Shown: positions 141 to 10,546 of the stretch, piece by piece
Position numbering within the stretch: position 1 is the first letter of the stretch
How the letters are laid out: each line of letters begins with the position of its first letter
Origin: Desulfobacula sp.
GTDB taxonomy: Bacteria; Desulfobacterota; Desulfobacteria; Desulfobacterales; Desulfobacteraceae
NCBI GenBank assembly: GCA_013792075.1
Contig: VMSR01000260.1
Span: 1 to 58,716 of the forward strand
Length of the DNA stretch: 58,716 bases
Direction: 5' to 3'
Program-made: the position numbers and the translations under genes
The notes under the pieces: generated by a model
Database searches by the model: none
Told to the model about the DNA's origin: nothing
What the model saw: only the letters and a program-made list of their open reading frames with translations

Positions 141-944
141 TTATCCATGGGTTTTGGCCAATTTTTTAAACATATTGGCAAGACCGGTGGACAAGGTATA
201 AATGTTTTCTATGGGCAGGTTTTTATCGGCGGTAGTGTCAAAAAACAGGTTTAGATCTGATTCCAGGCCTTCTTCGGGGCGATTGTAGCAAATCAACATG
301 GGTACCAGGGGCAGTGGATGGATGATCAGGGAAATATCTGCATCATAATGATTTTGAACCGGCCTGCCGTTAAACAACTCCATGATGTCCCGGAAAAAAG
401 AAGGGTTTGTATCAGCCACCTGTTTAAAAGAACCCACGCATTGATGTTCAAAAAACCGAGCCCAGTCTCTGGATGTTTCAAGCTCCCGGAAGGGGACCCA
501 TGATCCGGTCAGCGGCAACCCTTTGCTGCTCAATACATAATTTAACACCGGTGGGACAATCCAGGGATTTACATGAATATCGGTAGAGATTTCGCCATTT
601 TTACCAATGCCGAAGTCTTTGCCGAAAATTTTTAAAATTAAACGGCCATTTGAAAATTTACCCCCCAGTTTTTCTGCCCTGGACGCAAGATCAATCTGGT
701 TTATCCGGTCTTTTAACTGAGCAAGCACCTTGATATAGTCCTGCTCAAATGCGGATTCATATTCTAATTTCTGGGAACCGTATTTTTTGAGAATGGTTTC
801 ATCAATAAACGGGCACTGGCTTAAAGGGACCTGGCCCTGGAATACAGCTGCGGCAAATGCAAGGCAGGTAGGCTTATTGCATTTTCGGCAATTGGTTTTC
901 TCCAATAGTTTAAAGACATCCATTGTGGTTTTAAATTTTGTCAT
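141..944 (-). CDS. DUF3786 protein with N-terminal [4Fe-4S] motif
   Basis: A 267-residue cytoplasmic protein. Residues about 17-45 hold Cys-x2-Cys-x4-Cys-x16-Cys (CRKC, then PTC, then QCP), the arrangement of the small Fe-S domain also found in the corrinoid Fe-S protein gamma subunit of acetyl-CoA synthase. The rest matches the DUF3786 family by its 'GSWVPFRELE' and 'PLPLVPMLICYNRPEEGLESD' blocks. The function of DUF3786 is unknown. I chose the ATG at 944 rather than the upstream in-frame start at 977 because it overlaps the stop of the preceding gene by 14 bases and an AAGGAAGG site precedes it, implying translational coupling. Its upstream neighbour is a paralogue without the cysteine motif. 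Confidence 0.8.
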   Translation of the reverse strand: MTKFKTTMDVFKLLEKTNCRKCNKPTCLAFAAAVFQGQVPLSQCPFIDETILKKYGSQKLEYESAFEQDYIKVLAQLKDRINQIDLASRAEKLGGKFSNGRLILKIFGKDFGIGKNGEISTDIHVNPWIVPPVLNYVLSSKGLPLTGSWVPFRELETSRDWARFFEHQCVGSFKQVADTNPSFFRDIMELFNGRPVQNHYDADISLIIHPLPLVPMLICYNRPEEGLESDLNLFFDTTADKNLPIENIYTLSTGLANMFKKLAKTHG

Positions 945-1581
945 TGCATTCACCTTCCTTGTTTTTATCAGCCGCAATTAGCTTTTTTGCCAAAAGACCG
1001 CTGGTCATGGCCAGAGACTCCGGGTCCAGATAATATTCGCCCTGCCTTTGAAATAAAACCTTGCACTCTGCCGGAAACTCTTCGTCTGCATCGTTCATCA
1101 ACAGCAGCAGGGATAAGCGGGGCAGCGCCGTAAACCAGACCGCTAAATCATAGTTCAGGTCCATCTCCAGGGCGGTGCCATTCATCTTTTTACATGCGAT
1201 TTTCAGATCGGTCAAACGCCCTGAAAAATACGCTTTGATCTGCCCTATGGTCTCTGTATTAAAAAAATTGGCATTGGTAAAATGGGCCTGCCGTTTAAAA
1301 TCCCGAAATGTGCACCAGTCTCCATCCAGGTATAATTGATCCGGACAAAGCAGGACATATTTGGCCAAAATGACACAGGTCATATAGTCTGCCGTTTTAT
1401 TGTCCATTTTAAAAATACCCTGGCCGGATACCTGATAGGGTTTATTAAAGAAGGGAATCTGTGCAATGTTATTTTCAATATGAATGTCAAGCCGGTCTCT
1501 GATGGATGCAAAATCCACTGATGCAATCTGCCTGCAATAGTCCTTGTAATGCGCTTCAAATATTTTTGAACGCTGTGCCAT
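931..1581 (-). CDS. DUF3786 protein without Fe-S motif
   Basis: A 216-residue soluble protein that lacks the Cys-x2-Cys-x4-Cys motif of its downstream neighbour but shares the DUF3786 core: 'DWCTFRDFKRQAHF' corresponds to 'GSWVPFRELETSRDW' and 'LPRLSLLLLMNDADEEFPAE' to 'LPLVPMLICYNRPEEGLESD' of the other copy. The two are therefore likely paralogues that work together, perhaps as a heteromer. A GGAGGAT ribosome binding site lies about eight bases before the ATG. It is the first gene of a minus-strand operon that diverges from the Fe-S/LuxR-type regulator beginning near 1895. Function is unknown. Confidence 0.75.
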   Translation of the reverse strand: MAQRSKIFEAHYKDYCRQIASVDFASIRDRLDIHIENNIAQIPFFNKPYQVSGQGIFKMDNKTADYMTCVILAKYVLLCPDQLYLDGDWCTFRDFKRQAHFTNANFFNTETIGQIKAYFSGRLTDLKIACKKMNGTALEMDLNYDLAVWFTALPRLSLLLLMNDADEEFPAECKVLFQRQGEYYLDPESLAMTSGLLAKKLIAADKNKEGECNDKI

Positions 1582-1894
1582 ATAAAATTATCCTCCATTT
1601 TTTGATACAGGTTACGCCACAGATTTTGTATTTAATTACGCCATATTTCAATTAAATACATCCCCCATTTGGGCGATTTTTGAGATATTTAAAGATCAAA
1701 ATCAGGGATGGTGTGCTTTGGATAGGCGTTACCGGGATGTTGACATCCTGGGGGATCTACCCTATGGTTGAACAAAATAAATTGAGCCGACAATCATGAC
1801 ACCAGGACATTCAAATATCGGATTTCACAGTTTGCGGGTATGCTCCACTGGCCGGGGGCCCGCCACCCAGCCTGCGGATAAACTAAAGGCATGC
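1582..1894. promoter_or_regulatory. Divergent intergenic region between DUF3786 operon and Fe-S regulator
   Basis: About 310 bases with no convincing gene. It must carry promoters for both directions. It contains one strong symmetric element (1628-1659, listed separately) and two copies of TTACGCCA 26 bases apart (about 1610 and 1636). An in-frame upstream start for the regulator exists at 1796, but the extra 33 residues look non-conserved and a better-placed AAAGG lies before 1895. Confidence 0.5.
1628..1659. promoter_or_regulatory. Perfect 10-bp inverted repeat, candidate operator
   Basis: GTATTTAATT at 1628-1637 and AATTAAATAC at 1650-1659 are exact reverse complements separated by 12 bases. 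The arms are AT-rich and there is no T-run, so it is not an intrinsic terminator. It lies about 50 bases upstream of the DUF3786 start and about 235 bases upstream of the divergent LuxR-type regulator, where an operator for that regulator would be expected. The regulator-operator pairing is inference. Confidence 0.45.
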
Positions 1895-2696
1895 ATGATG
1901 GCGGATTTTGATTTTTCCATGGATATCGAATTCTTATTCCCCTATATCAATGCTGTGGTAAAAAAAGCCCAATTGTATGATAACCCATCCTATATCCGGT
2001 TTGGTTTTGATCATACCCTGTGTGTGCTTTATCCGGACAGGGGTCTTGCCTCCCCGTTTGATGATACTGAGGATGCAAGGGATTTTATGGTTCGGCTTAT
2101 GGCATTTTTAAATGATATGTATCATCGGAAGGCTCAGATCGCCCCTCGGTATAAAATTTTCAGACAGACGGCCATCACCCAGATATTAAAACTGCTGCCC
2201 CAGACCAATTGCAATGATTGCGGCTTTAACACATGTATGGCCTTTGCCGCCATGCTTGGCCGGCAGCAGACCCTTCCGGGGCGCTGCCCGCACATCAGCA
2301 GGCCGGTACAGGAAAAAGCCATTTTCCCGGTCCTTGATAACAACGGAAAACTATTGTCCACCATTACCCTGGATATTGATAACACCCAGAATGTATCTGA
2401 CTTGGATTCAGCAAAGCAATATATTGAAAACCTGGAAAAAAAAAATTGCGCGATTATCCGGCATGAAAAGCGATCTGATGGATGAAGCCAACCGCCAATT
2501 GCCAACGCCCTTGAGCCAGAGGGAAATAGAAGTGCTTCAAATGCTTGCCTGTGGCACCACAAATGTGGAAATCGCACAATCGTTAAATATCAGCCCCCAT
2601 ACGGTGAAAAGCCATATTACCCATATTTTTAATAAACTGGGGGTGAACAGCCGGACCCAGGCATCGGTTTGGGCCACCCAGCAGCATTTTGTTTAA
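1895..2696 (+). pseudogene. Frameshifted Fe-S domain / LuxR-type HTH regulator
   Basis: Two reading frames together encode one plausible regulator. The first (from ATG 1895 or 1898, AAAGG upstream, stop 2485) has a DUF3786-like or unknown N-terminal part and the motif Cys-x2-Cys-x4-Cys-x16-Cys (TNCNDCGFNTC, then GRCPH), the same Fe-S motif as the divergent DUF3786 gene. The second frame continues after an A10 tract (2436-2445) with 'KIARLSGMKSDLMDEANRQL' and a full LuxR/GerE helix-turn-helix ('LSQREIEVLQMLACG', 'NISPHTVKSHITHIFNKLGV') ending at 2696. Removing one A restores a single frame of about 266 residues. Possible explanations are a real mutation, a homopolymer sequencing error, or transcriptional slippage that makes both forms. 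The fused protein would be a redox- or iron-responsive activator or repressor; that role is inferred. Confidence 0.7.
2436..2445 (+). other. A10 homopolymer at the frame junction (slippage candidate)
   Basis: Ten consecutive A residues sit exactly where the Fe-S half and the HTH half of the regulator change frame. Runs of nine or more A are well-known sites of RNA polymerase slippage in bacteria. Loss of one A, or gain of two, in the transcript joins the halves. Confidence 0.6.
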
Positions 2697-2755: not shown

Positions 2756-5700
2756 CTAATCTTTCATATAGGTCTGGAAAATCTGTTCATGGGAAATGTA
2801 TTTTTCCCGGTCAGGGTCTAACAAATACAGGTGAATGGCATTCACCCTGCGCAGGATCTCTTCTTCCGCCCGTTTTCTCATTCGTATTTTTGTCTGGATG
2901 ATCTCTTCTTTCAGGGATGAGGTTGCCTGGGTGGCATAGTATTTTTCGGTTTTGTATGCGATTCGTTTTTCAATGAGTTCTTCCCTCAGGTCATTGTGGG
3001 CGTCATCTAAAAACAGGACCTCGGGCATGAGATCTGCAAAATGGGTCACGGCAATGATATCTTTTTTTCGCTGCCAATACCCGATGAGAAATTCCGGTTC
3101 CAGATCCTTATAATTTTGCAGGGGCATATACATGCGCCTTAAGTATAACAGGACCTTTTCCGTCTTTTTTCTATGGCCGCCGATGATCACGGACCCGCCC
3201 ACTTCGTCTTTTCGCACGCCCTTGGTCCAGGGAGCGCCCGTGATGCCGAAATCAATGCACAAGGGGATTCTCAGGAGGGCGGACATTGTGTTCAGGGCCA
3301 GGGCGTACCCGGCGGATGGGCCGCCCACGTTATAGGAGGCACTCAAGAGCTGGTGGTGGATGGTGTAGTGTTGCAGCAGGTCGCCAAACAGCCAGGGGAT
3401 ACTGATTTTGGGGGACAATTCCTGGATATAGTTTTTCACCATGGTCAAGGCTTCCTGGGCCGATTGCTTGGTCATCTGTACGGCCATGTCCAGCTGGGCA
3501 GCGTTGGGGGCGGAAGAGGAGACCGCGCCGGTGACGATTATCGTGGAGCCGTCCACCCTTCCTGTCAGGCTGGTGGCAATGGGCAGCAGCATGCCGGTGA
3601 CGTCATTGGCCCCCACACCAATGATAAACCCCACCTGGGGCTCTTTGCTCAGTTCTGTTTCAAGGAATTCATTGAGCTGGATGGACCCCTTGCGCACCGG
3701 GCTCCTGGAAATTTCCCTGCGGGCGGATTCCAGATGGGTCGCAACGATTGGGTATTTTTCTTCGGATGTGATATGGTCCACGGATTCCATGATCTGGTCA
3801 TAGTGTGTTACAAAGTTTTTCAGGTCGTTCTTTATGTTGGCCTTTAACAGGGGCGGGGCTTTTACTGCATCCAATATTCCCAGGATGGTTTTAAAATTTA
3901 ATTTGATGAACTCGTGTTTTTCCTGTTCGGTTGAATGTTTCAGATCCCGCAGTTTCAATAATACCTTATATTCGGTGCTGCAAAGGGCAATGGCTTTTTC
4001 CGTAAAAGAGGTAAAATCCGCCGGTGTATTGCAGATGCCCTGGGCGGTTTCAATGATTGTTTCCACTTCAAACTCCCGCTTGTGGGGAATATTGTCAAAT
4101 TGTTTTTTAATGATATCAAAAATATCCTTTTGCCGCATATGGCCTGAAACTTCAAGGGTTTTTAAGCGCTTGGACCGGATCAGGGCAGGGTCCAGGATAT
4201 CCAGACGATTGGTGGTCAGCACCGTAAACACCTTGTTTAAGGGAATTTCGCCGTCAATGATATTCAAGAATTTATTGGTCAGGGCATCGGAGGGTTGGCC
4301 GCCGGTAGCGCTTCTCTTGGGGGCCAGGGCATCTCCTTCGTCAAAGAAAATCACCGTGGGTGCCACCATCTTTGCAATATCATAGACCTTTTCAAGGTTG
4401 GCCACTGCCCCGTGGACCGGGCTTGCGGTATCCTGCAGAGCAGAGGGGCTTGTGGCAATGTCATGGACTTTCAGGTTGGAGGACAGCCAGGTCCTGACCA
4501 GAAAGGTCTTGCCGCTGCCGGGCGGTCCTGTGAGCACCACGCCCTTTTCCTCGCTGACCCCGTAGTTAAAACAATTGTTGGCCATTTCGGAAAATTTGTC
4601 CTTGATATCCCCCACATACTCCTCCCAGTTGACCTTGCGGTCCATGCGGTCCACCACCTTGTTGTAGAGTTCTCCATAGACATTTTTGGCCACCAGCTGG
4701 AAGGCGCTTCGCACAAGGATGCTGTTGTCCAGAAATTCAAGGATGAAGTCCCCCCGGATATTGATGATGGATTCAACCAGTTTCCGGACATAGGCCGGGC
4801 TGATTTTGAGACTGCGTTCCTTGAAAATGGCATAGATCTTTTCGGCTGCCGCGTCCAGAAGCGTGGAGTCCGGAAGAAAGTGGGTGGGAATCTGGTGACG
4901 GTTAATCTCCAGAAGGATGATTTTTTTAAGATTATCCTTGTTCATCCAGAACTTGGACATGTCAATGATGCAGCCTTTTTCCACAAATCGCCGGTAAATG
5001 GCCGAATCAAACCGATGGGTCTGGTCGGTTGTGGCAATGAGAAAACAATCCCGCCGGCCGTCAATGATTTCATCCAGTAAAATATTGCTGGTATCAATGA
5101 GGGTCCGCTGCTGTTTTTCGGCTCCGCCGCTGCCTGGACTGGTTTCCGATTTCCCGAAGGCAGAGTGGGCTTCCTCAATGTGGCGGATGGACGTGACCTT
5201 TGGGTGACCCATGGCCCTTTTAAAATAATTGCCCGGTTCTCCGGACAAGGCGGTCTGGTAATCGTTGGGGGTGATAATGGAGGCATCCACCTCTATACCC
5301 CGTTCTTCAAAATTGGTGAGACTGCTCATGATTCTTTTCTTAAATATCCGTCGCAATATGGGAATCCCTGCCAGGCGACGGTAAAAGGCCAGTTTTTTCT
5401 TTCTGGCAATCTTCATTGCAAAGTTAGGGTCTACATCCTCAAGTGCGGTAAACAGGCTGTGGTTTGCCAGGATTTCAGCCTTTTTTTGTCTCCAGTCGAC
5501 GGTGGGGATGACCTCGTTTCTAAAAACCACCTGCTCAAGGGCTTCCCTGACTGTTGCAGATTTGCCGCTGCCCGATGTCCCTTCGATGAGCATGATGGGC
5601 GCTTTGGGTACGTCCGGGTCCTCAAGATGCTCTTTTCTGATATGGGCCCGGTAGATTTTATCAAAGGTTACAGCCAATTCCATGGGCACATGCAGATCGG

Positions 5701-6070
5701 TGAGTTCCCGGTCCAGAACGGCAATCAGATAGTGGTATTCAGGTTTTGTCAGTTCTTTTTCAATGACCCGGTTCCAGGAAGCACCGGCATTGGTTTCTCC
5801 GGAATAAAGAAAGCGTTTCTTCCAGTCGGTCAGGATTTCAGGATTGTTGAGAACATTCATCACCCGTTTTTTTCTGCGCATATAAAAGATCAGATACAAA
5901 AGATCTTTTATACCCGAGACAAAGGGGCTTGGGGCCTTGTACTGGTTGAGACGGCTTCTTACAAACGCCTTTGTATCATAGGTCCATTCCGTTGCCATGG
6001 ATTCGATCTTTTTTATGGTTTCTTCGGGCAGGTTGATATAGATTTTTTCTTTTGTGATTCGTTTGGCCAT
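2756..6070 (-). CDS. Double AAA+ ATPase fused to a Lon-type protease domain
   Basis: 1104 residues. Residues 1-45 resemble a small DNA- or protein-binding module ('IYINLPEETIKKIESMA', ribbon-helix-helix-like). AAA+ module 1: Walker A GTSGSGKS at 164-171, an unusual Walker B 'HIEEAH' near 297-302, sensor-1 region 'LIATTDQ'. AAA+ module 2: Walker A GPPGSGKT at 515-522, Walker B 'VIFFDEGD' at 573-580, 'LTTNRLDILDPALIRSKR' with sensor Asn and arginines. The C-terminal third (about 800-1030) is Lon-like: 'NVGGPSAGYALALNTMSALL' places the nucleophile at Ser919, and 'GGHRKKTEK' at 964-972 supplies the catalytic Lys, most likely Lys969 by the GGVTxK pattern of LonB. This order differs from LonA, LonB and FtsH. 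Its start is 21 bases after the stop of a membrane SPFH protein, suggesting a membrane-tethered ATP-dependent protease. Substrates are unknown. Confidence 0.85.
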   Translation of the reverse strand: MAKRITKEKIYINLPEETIKKIESMATEWTYDTKAFVRSRLNQYKAPSPFVSGIKDLLYLIFYMRRKKRVMNVLNNPEILTDWKKRFLYSGETNAGASWNRVIEKELTKPEYHYLIAVLDRELTDLHVPMELAVTFDKIYRAHIRKEHLEDPDVPKAPIMLIEGTSGSGKSATVREALEQVVFRNEVIPTVDWRQKKAEILANHSLFTALEDVDPNFAMKIARKKKLAFYRRLAGIPILRRIFKKRIMSSLTNFEERGIEVDASIITPNDYQTALSGEPGNYFKRAMGHPKVTSIRHIEEAHSAFGKSETSPGSGGAEKQQRTLIDTSNILLDEIIDGRRDCFLIATTDQTHRFDSAIYRRFVEKGCIIDMSKFWMNKDNLKKIILLEINRHQIPTHFLPDSTLLDAAAEKIYAIFKERSLKISPAYVRKLVESIINIRGDFILEFLDNSILVRSAFQLVAKNVYGELYNKVVDRMDRKVNWEEYVGDIKDKFSEMANNCFNYGVSEEKGVVLTGPPGSGKTFLVRTWLSSNLKVHDIATSPSALQDTASPVHGAVANLEKVYDIAKMVAPTVIFFDEGDALAPKRSATGGQPSDALTNKFLNIIDGEIPLNKVFTVLTTNRLDILDPALIRSKRLKTLEVSGHMRQKDIFDIIKKQFDNIPHKREFEVETIIETAQGICNTPADFTSFTEKAIALCSTEYKVLLKLRDLKHSTEQEKHEFIKLNFKTILGILDAVKAPPLLKANIKNDLKNFVTHYDQIMESVDHITSEEKYPIVATHLESARREISRSPVRKGSIQLNEFLETELSKEPQVGFIIGVGANDVTGMLLPIATSLTGRVDGSTIIVTGAVSSSAPNAAQLDMAVQMTKQSAQEALTMVKNYIQELSPKISIPWLFGDLLQHYTIHHQLLSASYNVGGPSAGYALALNTMSALLRIPLCIDFGITGAPWTKGVRKDEVGGSVIIGGHRKKTEKVLLYLRRMYMPLQNYKDLEPEFLIGYWQRKKDIIAVTHFADLMPEVLFLDDAHNDLREELIEKRIAYKTEKYYATQATSSLKEEIIQTKIRMRKRAEEEILRRVNAIHLYLLDPDREKYISHEQIFQTYMKD

Positions 6071-6091
6071 TCGCTCCTCCCGGGCAACTCC

Positions 6092-7066
6092 TTAGGGGGT
6101 TGTCTTGTCGGTCTTACTTTGCATATCCGCGGTTTCCGTCAGCTGCTTTTTTTCAAAGGGGGGCAGTGTCATAGACGGCATCTGGCCGCTGGCATGGAGC
6201 ACAAAGGTTTTCTGGACAGACTGGTTTTTCTCGTAGGCGGTTGCCCATTTCTGCTGGGACAAAAATTCAAACAGGGCCGGATTTACCGCCTGGTTTTGGG
6301 AGCCGCCCAGGGCCATGTGAAGGGAGCTGATCCCTTCCAGATACGCTTTGTAGAGTTTGCCGATCTGGGCTGCTTCCTGGTCTGCGGCATAATTATCGGC
6401 CTCTGCGATGAGCTGGCGACGTTTTTTCTCTTCTGTTGCTTCGACCAGCTTGTCCCCGAATCGGGTTTCATTGAGGACAAAACTGACCACCTCAATGCCG
6501 TATTTTCCTTCCAGGGTTGGACCGTTTTTGTTGATGGGTCTGTCTTTCAGGGCCTTAAATATGGCTTCTTTTATGGTCTCCCTGTTGCTGATCAGATTGT
6601 TGACTTTTTCCCCCTGGAGGATGTCCTTGGAGATGCCGTCAAAATCGCCCTGGAGCAGAATTTCAGGGGAAAGGTTTTCAATGCCCCATACTTTCAGGTC
6701 TTTGATTTTAAAGGTCATGAGCGCAGATGTCCACAGGGCGACGTTTTCCTGGGAAATGATTTTTATGGGGGCGGAAGATCCCCCCAGATACATGTTCTGG
6801 TTCATGAGCGGGACCTCTTTTTCAAGCCGTGTGAAAAAGGGGAGACGATAATGCCAGCCCACATCGGTAACGGCTTGTCTTTTTCCCCCGAATTGCTCAA
6901 GAATGACTGCATAGTTGAGCTTTACCTTGTAAATGACATGGGTGGAATAGACAATGGCTGCCAAAGAGTAAAACACTGCGATAATGACCAGAACAAAGGC
7001 GGTCCTTCTGGCCATGGTGATGACCCGGGCCCGCTGGAGAAAAACTTCTGAAGCCTGATCCTTCAT
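6092..7066 (-). CDS. Membrane-anchored SPFH/band-7 (prohibitin-like) protein
   Basis: 324 residues. One membrane helix at about 21-40 ('RTAFVLVIIAVFYSLAAIVY') is followed by an SPFH domain at about 42-205 (the 'VILEQFGGKRQAVTDVGWHYRLPFF' region) and a charged, Ala/Glu-rich coiled coil at 205-240 ('EATEEKKRRQLIAEADNYAA'), as in HflC, HflK and prohibitins, which form large ring or cage assemblies around membrane proteases. A GAAAGGAGCAGGT ribosome binding site precedes the ATG. The next gene, 21 bases downstream, is the AAA-AAA-Lon protease, so the pair looks like an HflKC-FtsH analogue. The tail (about 300-324) is polar and Thr/Lys-rich. Family assignment is firm; partnership with the protease is inferred from gene order. 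Confidence 0.85.
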   Translation of the reverse strand: MKDQASEVFLQRARVITMARRTAFVLVIIAVFYSLAAIVYSTHVIYKVKLNYAVILEQFGGKRQAVTDVGWHYRLPFFTRLEKEVPLMNQNMYLGGSSAPIKIISQENVALWTSALMTFKIKDLKVWGIENLSPEILLQGDFDGISKDILQGEKVNNLISNRETIKEAIFKALKDRPINKNGPTLEGKYGIEVVSFVLNETRFGDKLVEATEEKKRRQLIAEADNYAADQEAAQIGKLYKAYLEGISSLHMALGGSQNQAVNPALFEFLSQQKWATAYEKNQSVQKTFVLHASGQMPSMTLPPFEKKQLTETADMQSKTDKTTP

Positions 7067-7249
7067 ACCTGCTCCTTTCCCTTGGATAAACGATCTGGGT
7101 TTACTGAAACGATTTGGTTAATACCATGAAAAAAAGTCACAAAACACGGTTAGCTTCAAGGGGAAAATGTACGAATTGTAAGTGGAATTCAATATTACGC
7201 GTCAGTATACATGAACAGGGAGAGCTAGTCAAAAAGTTTTTGCTTGTTT

Positions 7250-8287: not shown

Positions 8288-10546
8288 TTATTGAATGCGT
8301 TCAACCTGGTTACGGCCATTGGATTTTGCCAGGTACAGGGCTTTGTCGGCACGGGATATCATGGCCTGGGAGTCATCTTCTTTTTTAAAGGCAGTGACCC
8401 CAAAACTTGCGGTCTGGGAACCGGCTTTTCCAAAGCGTTCTGTCCCGATGCGGCGGCGGAGGGCCCCGGCCAGGTGGCATGCATTTTCAAGGTTGGTCTC
8501 GGGGCAGACAATGAGAAACTCTTCTCCCCCCCATCTGCCCAGGATATCCGTGGCCCGTATGTTTTTTTCGATCAGGCCGGTAAATAGTTTTAAAACTGTA
8601 TCCCCTGTCTGGTGGCCGAAGGTGTCGTTAACGGTTTTGAAAAAATCAATATCCAGCAGGATGATGGAAAGTTCCCGGCCATGCCGGCGGCTTCTTTTCA
8701 ATTCCAGTTCAAAGGTGGCTTCAATGTGACGGCGGTTAAAGATTTCTGTCAGACTGTCCGTGACCGAGATGTGCTCGAGTTCCTGGGTTTTCTGGCTGAG
8801 CTTTTCATGGGCAATGGCGATCTGCTTGTTCAGCCGGGACAGATTCCGGTTCCACAATACCACGAGGACCAGAACAATACCGAAAGCGGACAGGGATTTC
8901 CACAAAAGGCCATAGTCCGGTTTGTTTTCCAGTTCTTGGCCCAGCCATTTCTGGGAGATCGTGTCCAATTCATTTTGACTTAAGGACCTGACCACTTTGC
9001 TCATGATGGAATGAAGCTGCTTGTTTTCTTTTTGCACCCCCATGCGCAGGTCTTCTTTGATGCTGGAATGACCGGCCACCTTAAGGTTGGTAAGACCGGT
9101 TTTCCGAATATAATGGGAGGCCGCGGGCAGGCTTAAAACGGCTGTATCCAACTGCCCGGTGGAGACATCGATGAGGCAGTCCTCAATGGTTTCCATGGGG
9201 ACATAGTTCAGCTTCGGGTATTTTTCAATGACGCGTTCAAGGACATTGCCGGCTGCGACCATGCCGATCGTTTTTGATTTGAGCCCGGGGAGGTCGGTAA
9301 TAAAGGAAAAATTTTCCCGGGAAAGAATAACCACATTATACTCCATGAATGCAGAGGTAAAATCCAGGCGACCTTTTCTTGCCTCGGTTTTGCTGATCAT
9401 GGGGACAATATCCCAGGCCCCTGTTGCCACTTTGTCTATCGCATCGGCAAAGGACAGGGCCGGGATTGCCTGAAAGGAGATGTTCAGCTTTTCTTCAAAT
9501 ATTTCCAGAAGATCAGCGGTCATGCCCACAACCTGGTTTCCCCGGATCGCTGAAAAGGGCATGCGTTCCGGCGGCACACAAACACTTATCTGCTTCTTGT
9601 TTTTCAGCCAGTTCCGTTCTTCGGGGGTCAGCCCCACATCTTCCCCGCCGATTTGTCGTCCTGATCTGGAAAACCATTTGTTCTTGAGCTGTTCCATTTC
9701 AGCCGAAGTGATGCTGGCAAGGGTCTTGTCCAGGATGGAAAATAAAATTGGGTTGGTTTTGAGTACGGCAAAGTGCATGGAGGATGTTTTCTGGAGTTCT
9801 TCATTCTCCAGCCAGGGGGAAAGCGCAAGGTCGGTAAAACCGAATTTTTTTATAAAATACCGGGCAATCCCTTCCTGTTCCACCGTGGCGGTTACCTTGC
9901 CCTGGTCCACATACTCAAGGGCCTGGCGGCTGCTTTCAACTTCTATGATATGGACTTTTGGATAATGGGTTTTGAAAAATTCGATGGAAGACCAGCCTTT
10001 TGGCAGGGCAATAATTTTTTTTTCCAGGTCGTCGAGGGTCTGAATATCCAGGGCATCGGACCTGAAGATCAGTACATTTTTGCTATGGTAGTAAGGGGAG
10101 GAGAACAAGGCTTTTTGCTGCCGTTCAGGGGTGAGACTCAGTGAATGCACCACATCCAGATGCCCCTTAAAGAACATTTCCATCAGTTCCTCCCAGGTGT
10201 ATCCGTTGACATAGGATATGGAAAGCCCTGATTTTCGGGCCAGAAGATCCATTAAATCAATACCGAATCCGGCAGGCAGGCCGTCGGCAATGAAATCAAA
10301 TGGCGGCCAGTCAAATTCGTTGGCCACTGTAATGATAGGTCTCGCGTCGATAAATGCCTGCTCTTCGGCGGTATAGGGTCCTGCTGGGATCGGTTTGGAA
10401 TCCGTTTTATAGCCGAACTGGTGATCCTGGGGATTCCCATGGGCAAGAAGGGGGAAAAATAAAAAAATTACCAGGCATACCCATCCCAGGCCTGTCCGGC
10501 GGCAAAAGGAATACTTTTTTTTGTGATGCAAACGCAAGGCCCCCAA
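8288..10546 (-). CDS. Diguanylate cyclase with two periplasmic solute-binding domains
   Basis: About 750 residues. A signal/anchor segment (about 20-37) is followed by two tandem bacterial solute-binding family 3 domains (about 68-295 and 318-540), a membrane helix at 548-566, a short linker helix and a GGDEF domain (590-750). The active site is GGEEF at 673-677 and the inhibitory RxxD site is present (RATD, 664-667), so it should make c-di-GMP with product feedback. The PBP domains probably sense an amino acid or similar ligand in the periplasm. No ATG or GTG lies near the N terminus: in-frame starts are TTG at 10546, 10537 and 10531, the last having GGGGG about eight bases upstream. The gene begins 24 bases after nadA. 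Confidence 0.85.
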   Translation of the reverse strand: MGALRLHHKKKYSFCRRTGLGWVCLVIFLFFPLLAHGNPQDHQFGYKTDSKPIPAGPYTAEEQAFIDARPIITVANEFDWPPFDFIADGLPAGFGIDLMDLLARKSGLSISYVNGYTWEELMEMFFKGHLDVVHSLSLTPERQQKALFSSPYYHSKNVLIFRSDALDIQTLDDLEKKIIALPKGWSSIEFFKTHYPKVHIIEVESSRQALEYVDQGKVTATVEQEGIARYFIKKFGFTDLALSPWLENEELQKTSSMHFAVLKTNPILFSILDKTLASITSAEMEQLKNKWFSRSGRQIGGEDVGLTPEERNWLKNKKQISVCVPPERMPFSAIRGNQVVGMTADLLEIFEEKLNISFQAIPALSFADAIDKVATGAWDIVPMISKTEARKGRLDFTSAFMEYNVVILSRENFSFITDLPGLKSKTIGMVAAGNVLERVIEKYPKLNYVPMETIEDCLIDVSTGQLDTAVLSLPAASHYIRKTGLTNLKVAGHSSIKEDLRMGVQKENKQLHSIMSKVVRSLSQNELDTISQKWLGQELENKPDYGLLWKSLSAFGIVLVLVVLWNRNLSRLNKQIAIAHEKLSQKTQELEHISVTDSLTEIFNRRHIEATFELELKRSRRHGRELSIILLDIDFFKTVNDTFGHQTGDTVLKLFTGLIEKNIRATDILGRWGGEEFLIVCPETNLENACHLAGALRRRIGTERFGKAGSQTASFGVTAFKKEDDSQAMISRADKALYLAKSNGRNQVERIQ

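Follow-up and report, generated by a model that had tools for sequence, protein, structure and literature searches.

Do an SPFH gene and the gene for a tandem AAA, Lon-type protease, lying side by side in a bacterial genome, encode two parts of one membrane machine? This question is raised by contig VMSR01000260.1 of Desulfobacula sp. (assembly GCA_013792075.1), whose 58,716 nucleotides are referred to here as the window. Two minus-strand open reading frames (ORFs) are found there, at 6092-7066 (324 amino acids) and 2756-6070 (1104 amino acids), with 21 bases between them. In bacteria as well as in organelles, membrane proteases are found together with SPFH proteins. We propose, with a probability of about 0.58, that the pair constitutes a two-gene membrane proteolysis unit similar to FtsH–HflK/C, into which a Lon-type peptidase has been exchanged and a second AAA ring added. 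The evidence that carries this proposal comprises the domains of both proteins, the invariant residues of the ATP sites and of the catalytic dyad, and the strict genetic linkage of the two genes. The features of the locus are as follows.

6092..7066, minus strand: SPFH (Band 7) gene, first of the pair, 324 amino acids (ORF, PF01145, fold matches)
7004..7066, minus strand: SPFH residues 1-21, basic N-terminal tail, a candidate cytosolic docking tail
6947..7003, minus strand: SPFH residues 22-40, single transmembrane helix (hydropathy and predicted model)
6371..6925, minus strand: SPFH domain, residues 48-232 (Pfam)
2756..6070, minus strand: AAA-AAA-Lon gene, second of the pair, 1104 amino acids (ORF, Pfam, NCBIfam)
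5933..6070, minus strand: protease residues 1-46, conserved small domain, predicted strand-helix-helix
5879..5923, minus strand: protease residues 50-64, variable, mostly hydrophobic predicted helix, candidate for membrane binding
4691..5698, minus strand: AAA module 1 (AAA1), about residues 125-460
5558..5581, minus strand: Walker A of AAA1, residues 164-171, Lys170 invariant
3944..4690, minus strand: AAA module 2 (AAA2), about residues 461-709, Cdc48/proteasome/FtsH type
4505..4528, minus strand: Walker A of AAA2, residues 515-522, Lys521 invariant
3098..3670, minus strand: Lon-type peptidase domain, residues 801-991
3314..3316, minus strand: Ser919, presumed catalytic serine, 43 of 43 homologues
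3164..3166, minus strand: Lys969, presumed catalytic lysine, 43 of 43 homologues, paired with the lysine of 1xhk in the alignment
7067..7080, minus strand: AAAGGAG, ribosome-binding-site-like, directly upstream of the SPFH start (sequence)

Conservation and distribution of the gene pair

Comparison across genomes supported the pair as a conserved two-gene unit of constant order. Three sets were used, a class sample of 291 evenly drawn genomes, a scan of named genomes and a phylum sample; they share genomes and are not independent. Within the class sample, the protease sequence occurred in 72 genomes and the SPFH sequence in 66, all of them among the 72, while no genome held the SPFH sequence alone (Fisher P = 6e-59, with the kinship of the genomes ignored). 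The initial annotation, which had suspected a joint protease machine, named a protease mostly without an SPFH neighbor as the outcome that would speak against it; instead, 66 of the 72 class genomes were paired, and the protease genes of the other six were all partial or decayed. In two of these genomes (G287, G200) the contig starts or stops within the protease gene, in a third (G285) matching sets in near residue 880, at a distance of 172 bases from the end of the contig, and in a fourth (G184) a partial gene reaches the contig end, its 5' part missing without visible reason. The last two (G062, locus L219; G064, locus L220) carry protease remnants in the interior of long contigs; the SPFH gene was not found in either genome, and this combination of a remnant with a missing partner suggests that both genes were lost jointly. 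A decayed second protease copy was also present in G111 (L221), besides an intact pair.

The arrangement of the genes was equally regular. Among the best 80 of 188 named relatives, a scan that a distant outlier could escape, the SPFH gene lay directly upstream on the same strand in 74, which are all of those with upstream DNA (74/74); for the remaining six (L105, L111, L117, L128, L131, L132), the upstream DNA is 106 bases or less, leaving no room for it. The phylum sample added the SPFH partner at 11 of 11 further loci. Strand and gene order were constant in 50 of 50 distinct loci, with spacings from -29 to +194 bases, and the two genes overlapped in 14 of the 20 loci taken from other families (L042-L061). 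Neighbor clustering of 100 stretches, for which a simple gene caller was used and in which protease and SPFH counts include antisense shadows, placed the protease in 99 stretches and the SPFH protein in 95. Four of the five stretches without a clustered SPFH gene (L096, L101, L133, L144) were positive by profile search, and the fifth (L132) begins inside the protease gene. No generally conserved third gene was found in these stretches, the next commonest neighbor cluster being present in 18 of the 100. Furthermore, protease and SPFH distances were correlated over 43 rows (r = 0.90, slope 0.96), although shared descent alone could suffice for this.

The hosts are sulfur- and iron-reducing bacteria; isolates with the locus include Desulfospira joergensenii (L073), Desulfobacter vibrioformis (L075) and Malonomonas rubra (L125). 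Among the best 80 of 188 relatives, Desulfobacterales and their kin showed 54-94% identity and Desulfuromonadales-type sequences 47-50%, and one SAR324 and one Woesearchaeota record were also present. Each of these two was the sole positive among the genomes of its own phylum (52 and 237, respectively); a spread beyond Desulfobacterota was therefore rejected, misassigned contigs or rare transfer being the likely source. Occurrence is patchy, with 72 of 291 class genomes (57 of 200 when restricted to good assemblies), 12 of 395 in a broader sample of the phylum and 7 of 247 in a second such sample that partly repeats the first.

A mobile, phage or viral origin and a role in defense were also considered and rejected. 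None of 72,556 plasmid records (392 matching by tblastn) or 50,697 phage records (33 matching) covered 80% of the protease, and at least 37 loci in viral contigs matched it solely within residues 438-750, the AAA2 region. PADLOC matches were low and fell within the AAA stretches (best 51 bits, IetA), with none for the SPFH protein. Stress promoters of the sigma54, sigma32 and CIRCE types were likewise rejected, as such patterns were no commoner upstream of 43 SPFH genes than in shuffles; sigma70-like sites in the window were not more frequent than expected by chance.

Several neighbors of the pair were recorded. In the Desulfobacula-type loci L064, L067, L070, L073, L080 and L102, and partly in L065, the pair stands tail-to-tail with a FloA/NfeD group, another SPFH system; Pfam bore out these names for three of the proteins encoded at L080 and L073. 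Within the window, overlapping DUF3786 genes lie at 141-977 and 931-1581 (minus strand), one of them also with an iron-sulfur (Fe-S) cluster motif, and a third protein with an Fe-S motif is encoded at 1796-2485 (plus strand). Upstream of the pair, at 8288-10546 (minus strand), two solute-binding stretches are combined with a GGDEF domain, a cluster seen in five of the 100 stretches.

Domains of the protease and the SPFH protein

The larger protein joins two AAA modules to a Lon-type peptidase domain. Pfam AAA (PF00004) matched it with 98.2 bits against a cut-off of 21.2 in two stretches, the best at residues 511-637. Judged from its sequence and predicted model, AAA2 is of the Cdc48/proteasome/FtsH type: its NCBIfam scores were 84 bits for CDC48, 73 for PAN and 61 for FtsH_fam, all under the family cut-offs, it aligns with both D1 and D2 of p97, and its model matched a proteasome ATPase subunit over 257 residues (Z 21.6, root-mean-square deviation 3.0). 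The whole chain aligned to p97 at E = 9e-41, and by Foldseek the full model follows both Cdc48/p97 rings (725 columns). Confidence in this model was moderate, with a mean predicted local distance difference test (pLDDT) score of 75 and a predicted template modeling score (pTM) of 0.53; the structural match rows cover mostly residues 413-798, and a fold missing from these rows is uninformative. The sequence evidence for AAA1 is weak. With residues 1-460 as the only query, the best PDB match had an unconvincing E = 0.046, and the AAA1 profile reached Cdc48 D1 at E = 0.002, ranked behind other P-loop proteins. Nonetheless, Lys170, Glu299, Glu300, Arg360 and Arg361 of AAA1 were invariant in 43 of 43 homologues, as were, over both modules, the Walker A lysines, the Walker B acidic residues and four arginines.

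The peptidase part is of the Lon type (S16), and ATP-driven proteolysis is predicted for the protein. Lon_C (PF05362) matched residues 801-991 with 24.0 bits against a cut-off of 21.1, and the best PDB sequence matches of the C-terminal part were Lon-type peptidases, headed by 1xhk (E = 3.6e-6), in whose alignment Ser919 and Lys969 fall on serine and lysine. Lon proteases use a Ser-Lys dyad, as described in PMC2605481. Ser919 lies within a GGPSAG motif, and Ser919, Thr944 and Lys969 were invariant in all 43 homologues; the adjoining Lys968 was kept in 41, and position 967 was not conserved. With a mean identity of 0.63 between the two main groups of the family, the Lon domain was the best conserved part; the AAA modules reached 0.48 and 0.59. 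The NCBIfam models of Lon matched mostly this part of the protein at 25-39 bits, and the equivalog models for LonA and LonB, at 30.6, 38.5 and 34.4 bits, fell short of their cut-offs of at least 516. No NCBIfam model qualified at its cut-off for the AAA-AAA-Lon protein, and none matched the SPFH protein at E 0.1; therefore, neither protein receives a specific NCBIfam family name.

A crude hydropathy test found no strong hydrophobic segment in the window's protease (best window 1.54), and in the 8 protease chains covered, out of 43, the best 19-residue windows reached 1.54-2.07, all within the Lon domain. The N-terminal part holds a candidate membrane-binding helix at residues 50-64. This stretch ranked first for hydrophobicity among 146 variable 15-residue windows (0.63, against a mean of 0.31 and a maximum of 0.48 elsewhere), the model places a helix at 49-63, and it was clearly hydrophobic (at least 0.25) in 31 of 43 rows. 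The surrounding residues 47-72 drift, with an identity of 0.10 to Desulfuromonadales-type rows. Ahead of the helix, the conserved residues 1-46 matched no family by Pfam or PDB profiles; a ribbon-helix-helix domain, proposed from the strand-helix-helix order and the sequences, was rejected for lack of support from the same profiles.

The SPFH protein is simpler. Band_7 (PF01145) matched residues 48-232 with 52.3 bits against a cut-off of 23.6, and a single strongly hydrophobic segment, residues 22-40, reached a mean Kyte-Doolittle value of 2.45, the best value past residue 45 being 0.81. The model, a single chain as for all SPFH models here, shows a helix at 4-42, the domain and a further helix at 206-252 (mean pLDDT 76.5, pTM 0.53). 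Its fold matches, whose rows cover mostly residues 34-260, were spread over HflK/HflC, prohibitin, stomatin and QmcA, so that no SPFH subfamily is favored. HflK/HflC family models gave no match at E 0.1, whereas the genome's own HflK/HflC scored 207-275 bits. According to PMC10434171, HflK/C is periplasmic and QmcA cytoplasmic. For the present protein, a tail in the cytosol and a domain outside, as in HflK/C, are favored by about two to one, because the tail is basic and contains an Arg12 that is invariant in 43 of 43 rows.

On these points the initial annotation stood up well. Its one-helix SPFH gene 21 bases ahead of an AAA-AAA-Lon gene agrees with ORFs, Pfam and hydropathy, and its two AAA modules with a Lon domain are borne out by Pfam, Foldseek and the invariant ATP-site residues, AAA1 being the part that is weak by sequence. 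The description of the enzyme as a protease unrelated to FtsH holds for the peptidase only, because AAA2 matches CDC48, PAN and FtsH models. Likewise, the claim that the protease has no membrane helix of its own agrees with the absence of a transmembrane window by crude hydropathy but had missed the candidate membrane-binding helix at 50-64.

A proposed membrane assembly and its alternatives

In the assembly that we propose, the SPFH protein would assemble into a ring or cage within the inner membrane and mark a patch of it. The protease would be hexameric, with one AAA ring stacked on the other and a chamber of Lon-type serine peptidase domains, docking at the cytosolic face of the membrane through helix 50-64 and through the SPFH tail or assembly. 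Proteins, probably membrane proteins, would then be pulled by ATP-powered motors into the Lon chamber for degradation. If substrates are threaded, the first AAA ring would probably be the gripping ring, because AAA2 mostly lacks the aromatic pore residue and AAA1 carries leucine or an aromatic at residue 275. An SPFH domain that faced the periplasm could not enclose an enzyme of the cytosol, and "caging" would then amount to docking at the cytosolic side. The role that the scaffold plays for the protease is debated, a closed shielding cage being set against a shell with an entry (PMC12048511).

Several observations weigh against the proposed unit. The pair is missing from 219 of the 291 class genomes, and the host genome also has FtsH, two hflK/hflC loci and several Lon genes; the pair is thus not needed for basic membrane proteolysis and would be an added, specialized device. 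In the AAA2 pore-loop region (541-556), where p97 D2 has MWFG, 38 of 43 rows lack any aromatic residue, a feature that speaks against a mechanism simply like that of FtsH, and residue 275 of AAA1 is leucine in 29 of the 43 and aromatic in 14. The Lon domain is poorly modeled, with pLDDT below 50 at 791-860 and 908-919, and its active-site geometry is unreadable. In 12 of 43 rows, 10 of them Desulfuromonadales-type, helix 50-64 is polar or has little hydrophobic character; several of these 12 have a high hydrophobic moment. Finally, the topology of the SPFH protein is uncertain: lysines plus arginines number 5.5 before and 3.7 after its helix (38 of 43 rows), a modest bias, and when applied to HflK/HflC of this genome such a count has little discriminating power.

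The other proteases and SPFH genes of the host genome were recorded as well. Its sole M41 match is the FtsH gene on contig C99, the window being on contig C91. Strong Lon_C matches occur in three frames of 782-821 amino acids and one of 320 amino acids on contigs C165, C116, C120 and C279 of G000, and three further frames have weak ones. Additionally, a 515-amino-acid frame (L194, with L192 and L193; region G000:C244:65457-65969) combines a CDF cation-efflux transporter with an HflK-type SPFH domain and adjoins separate hflK and hflC genes.

Among the alternatives, the one that survives best makes the SPFH protein a client, its assemblies being remodeled or trimmed by the AAA-AAA-Lon enzyme much as long NfeD trims stomatin. 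There is precedent for operons in which the product of an SPFH gene is cut by the protease encoded beside it (PMC2636767, PMC13086221), the motor is of Cdc48 type, and SPFH residues 281-303 are conserved (0.55) yet have pLDDT below 50, as a processed or recognized tail might. We nevertheless consider this explanation unlikely, as a periplasmic SPFH domain, which the data weakly support, would place the C-terminus beyond the reach of a cytosolic enzyme. The enzyme could also be a membrane-bound unfoldase or segregase with a job nearer to that of Cdc48 than of FtsH, its peptidase being secondary or reserved for released peptides; the tandem AAA modules that match p97/Cdc48 along both rings and the unusual AAA2 pore loop would suit such a role. 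However, the invariance of both Ser919 and Lys969 and the strong conservation of the Lon domain between the main groups make it rather improbable that proteolysis is subordinate. That the genes are merely co-transcribed, answering the same stress without contact, would agree with the lack of a shared third partner but is very improbable given near-absolute pairing across families and both main groups while other neighbors vary, and given the G064 and G062 protease remnants beside which no SPFH gene was found.

Relation to known protease systems

The proposed unit is best understood against four known systems. FtsH with HflK/C provides the precedent for an SPFH–AAA protease complex (PMC12048511). 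The FtsH–HflK/HflC and m-AAA protease–prohibitin systems likewise unite an SPFH partner, an AAA motor of the same type and a peptidase. In contrast to the zinc-dependent M41 peptidase of FtsH, however, the pair has a Lon-type Ser-Lys peptidase, and its protease has two AAA modules, no transmembrane helices that could be seen and one adjoining SPFH gene. With Lon (S16), the protease shares the Lon_C domain, the Ser-Lys dyad and Thr944, and it differs from Lon in an AAA2 that resembles CDC48, PAN and FtsH, in its tandem AAA modules and in its constant SPFH neighbor; a LON N-domain was absent among the 25 of 30 Pfam families listed. In archaeal LonB, a transmembrane segment inside the AAA module serves as the membrane anchor (PMC9263693), whereas hydropathy revealed none in the present protease. 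The order and fold of the tandem AAA modules and the Walker motifs in both are common to Cdc48/p97, from which the protease is set apart by a fused peptidase, a different N-terminal domain, a highly diverged AAA1 and a mostly aromatic-free AAA2 pore loop. Stomatin/SPFH–NfeD operons similarly combine an SPFH gene with a protease as operon mate, and long NfeD has a ClpP-type domain (PMC2636767). NfeD is a non-AAA protease, though, and does not belong to the conserved unit, even if six of the 100 stretches stand tail-to-tail with FloA/NfeD.

The initial annotation knew of no described system with this architecture, and a published description of an SPFH and AAA-AAA-Lon pair was likewise not found in open-access full text, a scope outside which most subscription papers fall. 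A 2009 survey recognized 12 subfamilies of prokaryotic SPFH proteins on the basis of sequence and operon and named NfeD and FtsH as partners; the word "Lon" is absent from its main text, and subfamilies 6-12 appear there without documented members (PMC2636767). As far as its account of architectures goes, a 2008 survey of Lon proteins gave LON-AAA-Lon_C and a few others, with no tandem AAA form (PMC2605481). Thus, the idea of an SPFH protein with an AAA protease is already known, and the present combination of parts appears to be new. At slightly less than even odds, in our judgment, the pair represents another way of building a membrane AAA protease in bacteria, in which a Cdc48/FtsH-type double motor with a Lon-type peptidase would be brought to the membrane by a membrane-binding helix and by an SPFH scaffold dedicated to it rather than by transmembrane segments of its own, an independent assembly of the FtsH–HflK/C idea confined almost entirely to Desulfobacterota and their relatives. 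The fusion of a Cdc48/FtsH-type motor to a Lon peptidase bears on how freely motors and peptidases can be combined. Moreover, a second, separately built SPFH–protease pair, with a protease seemingly devoid of transmembrane helices, would allow the comparison with FtsH–HflK/C to ask whether the shell, the anchor or the peptidase type is the essential part of such machines.

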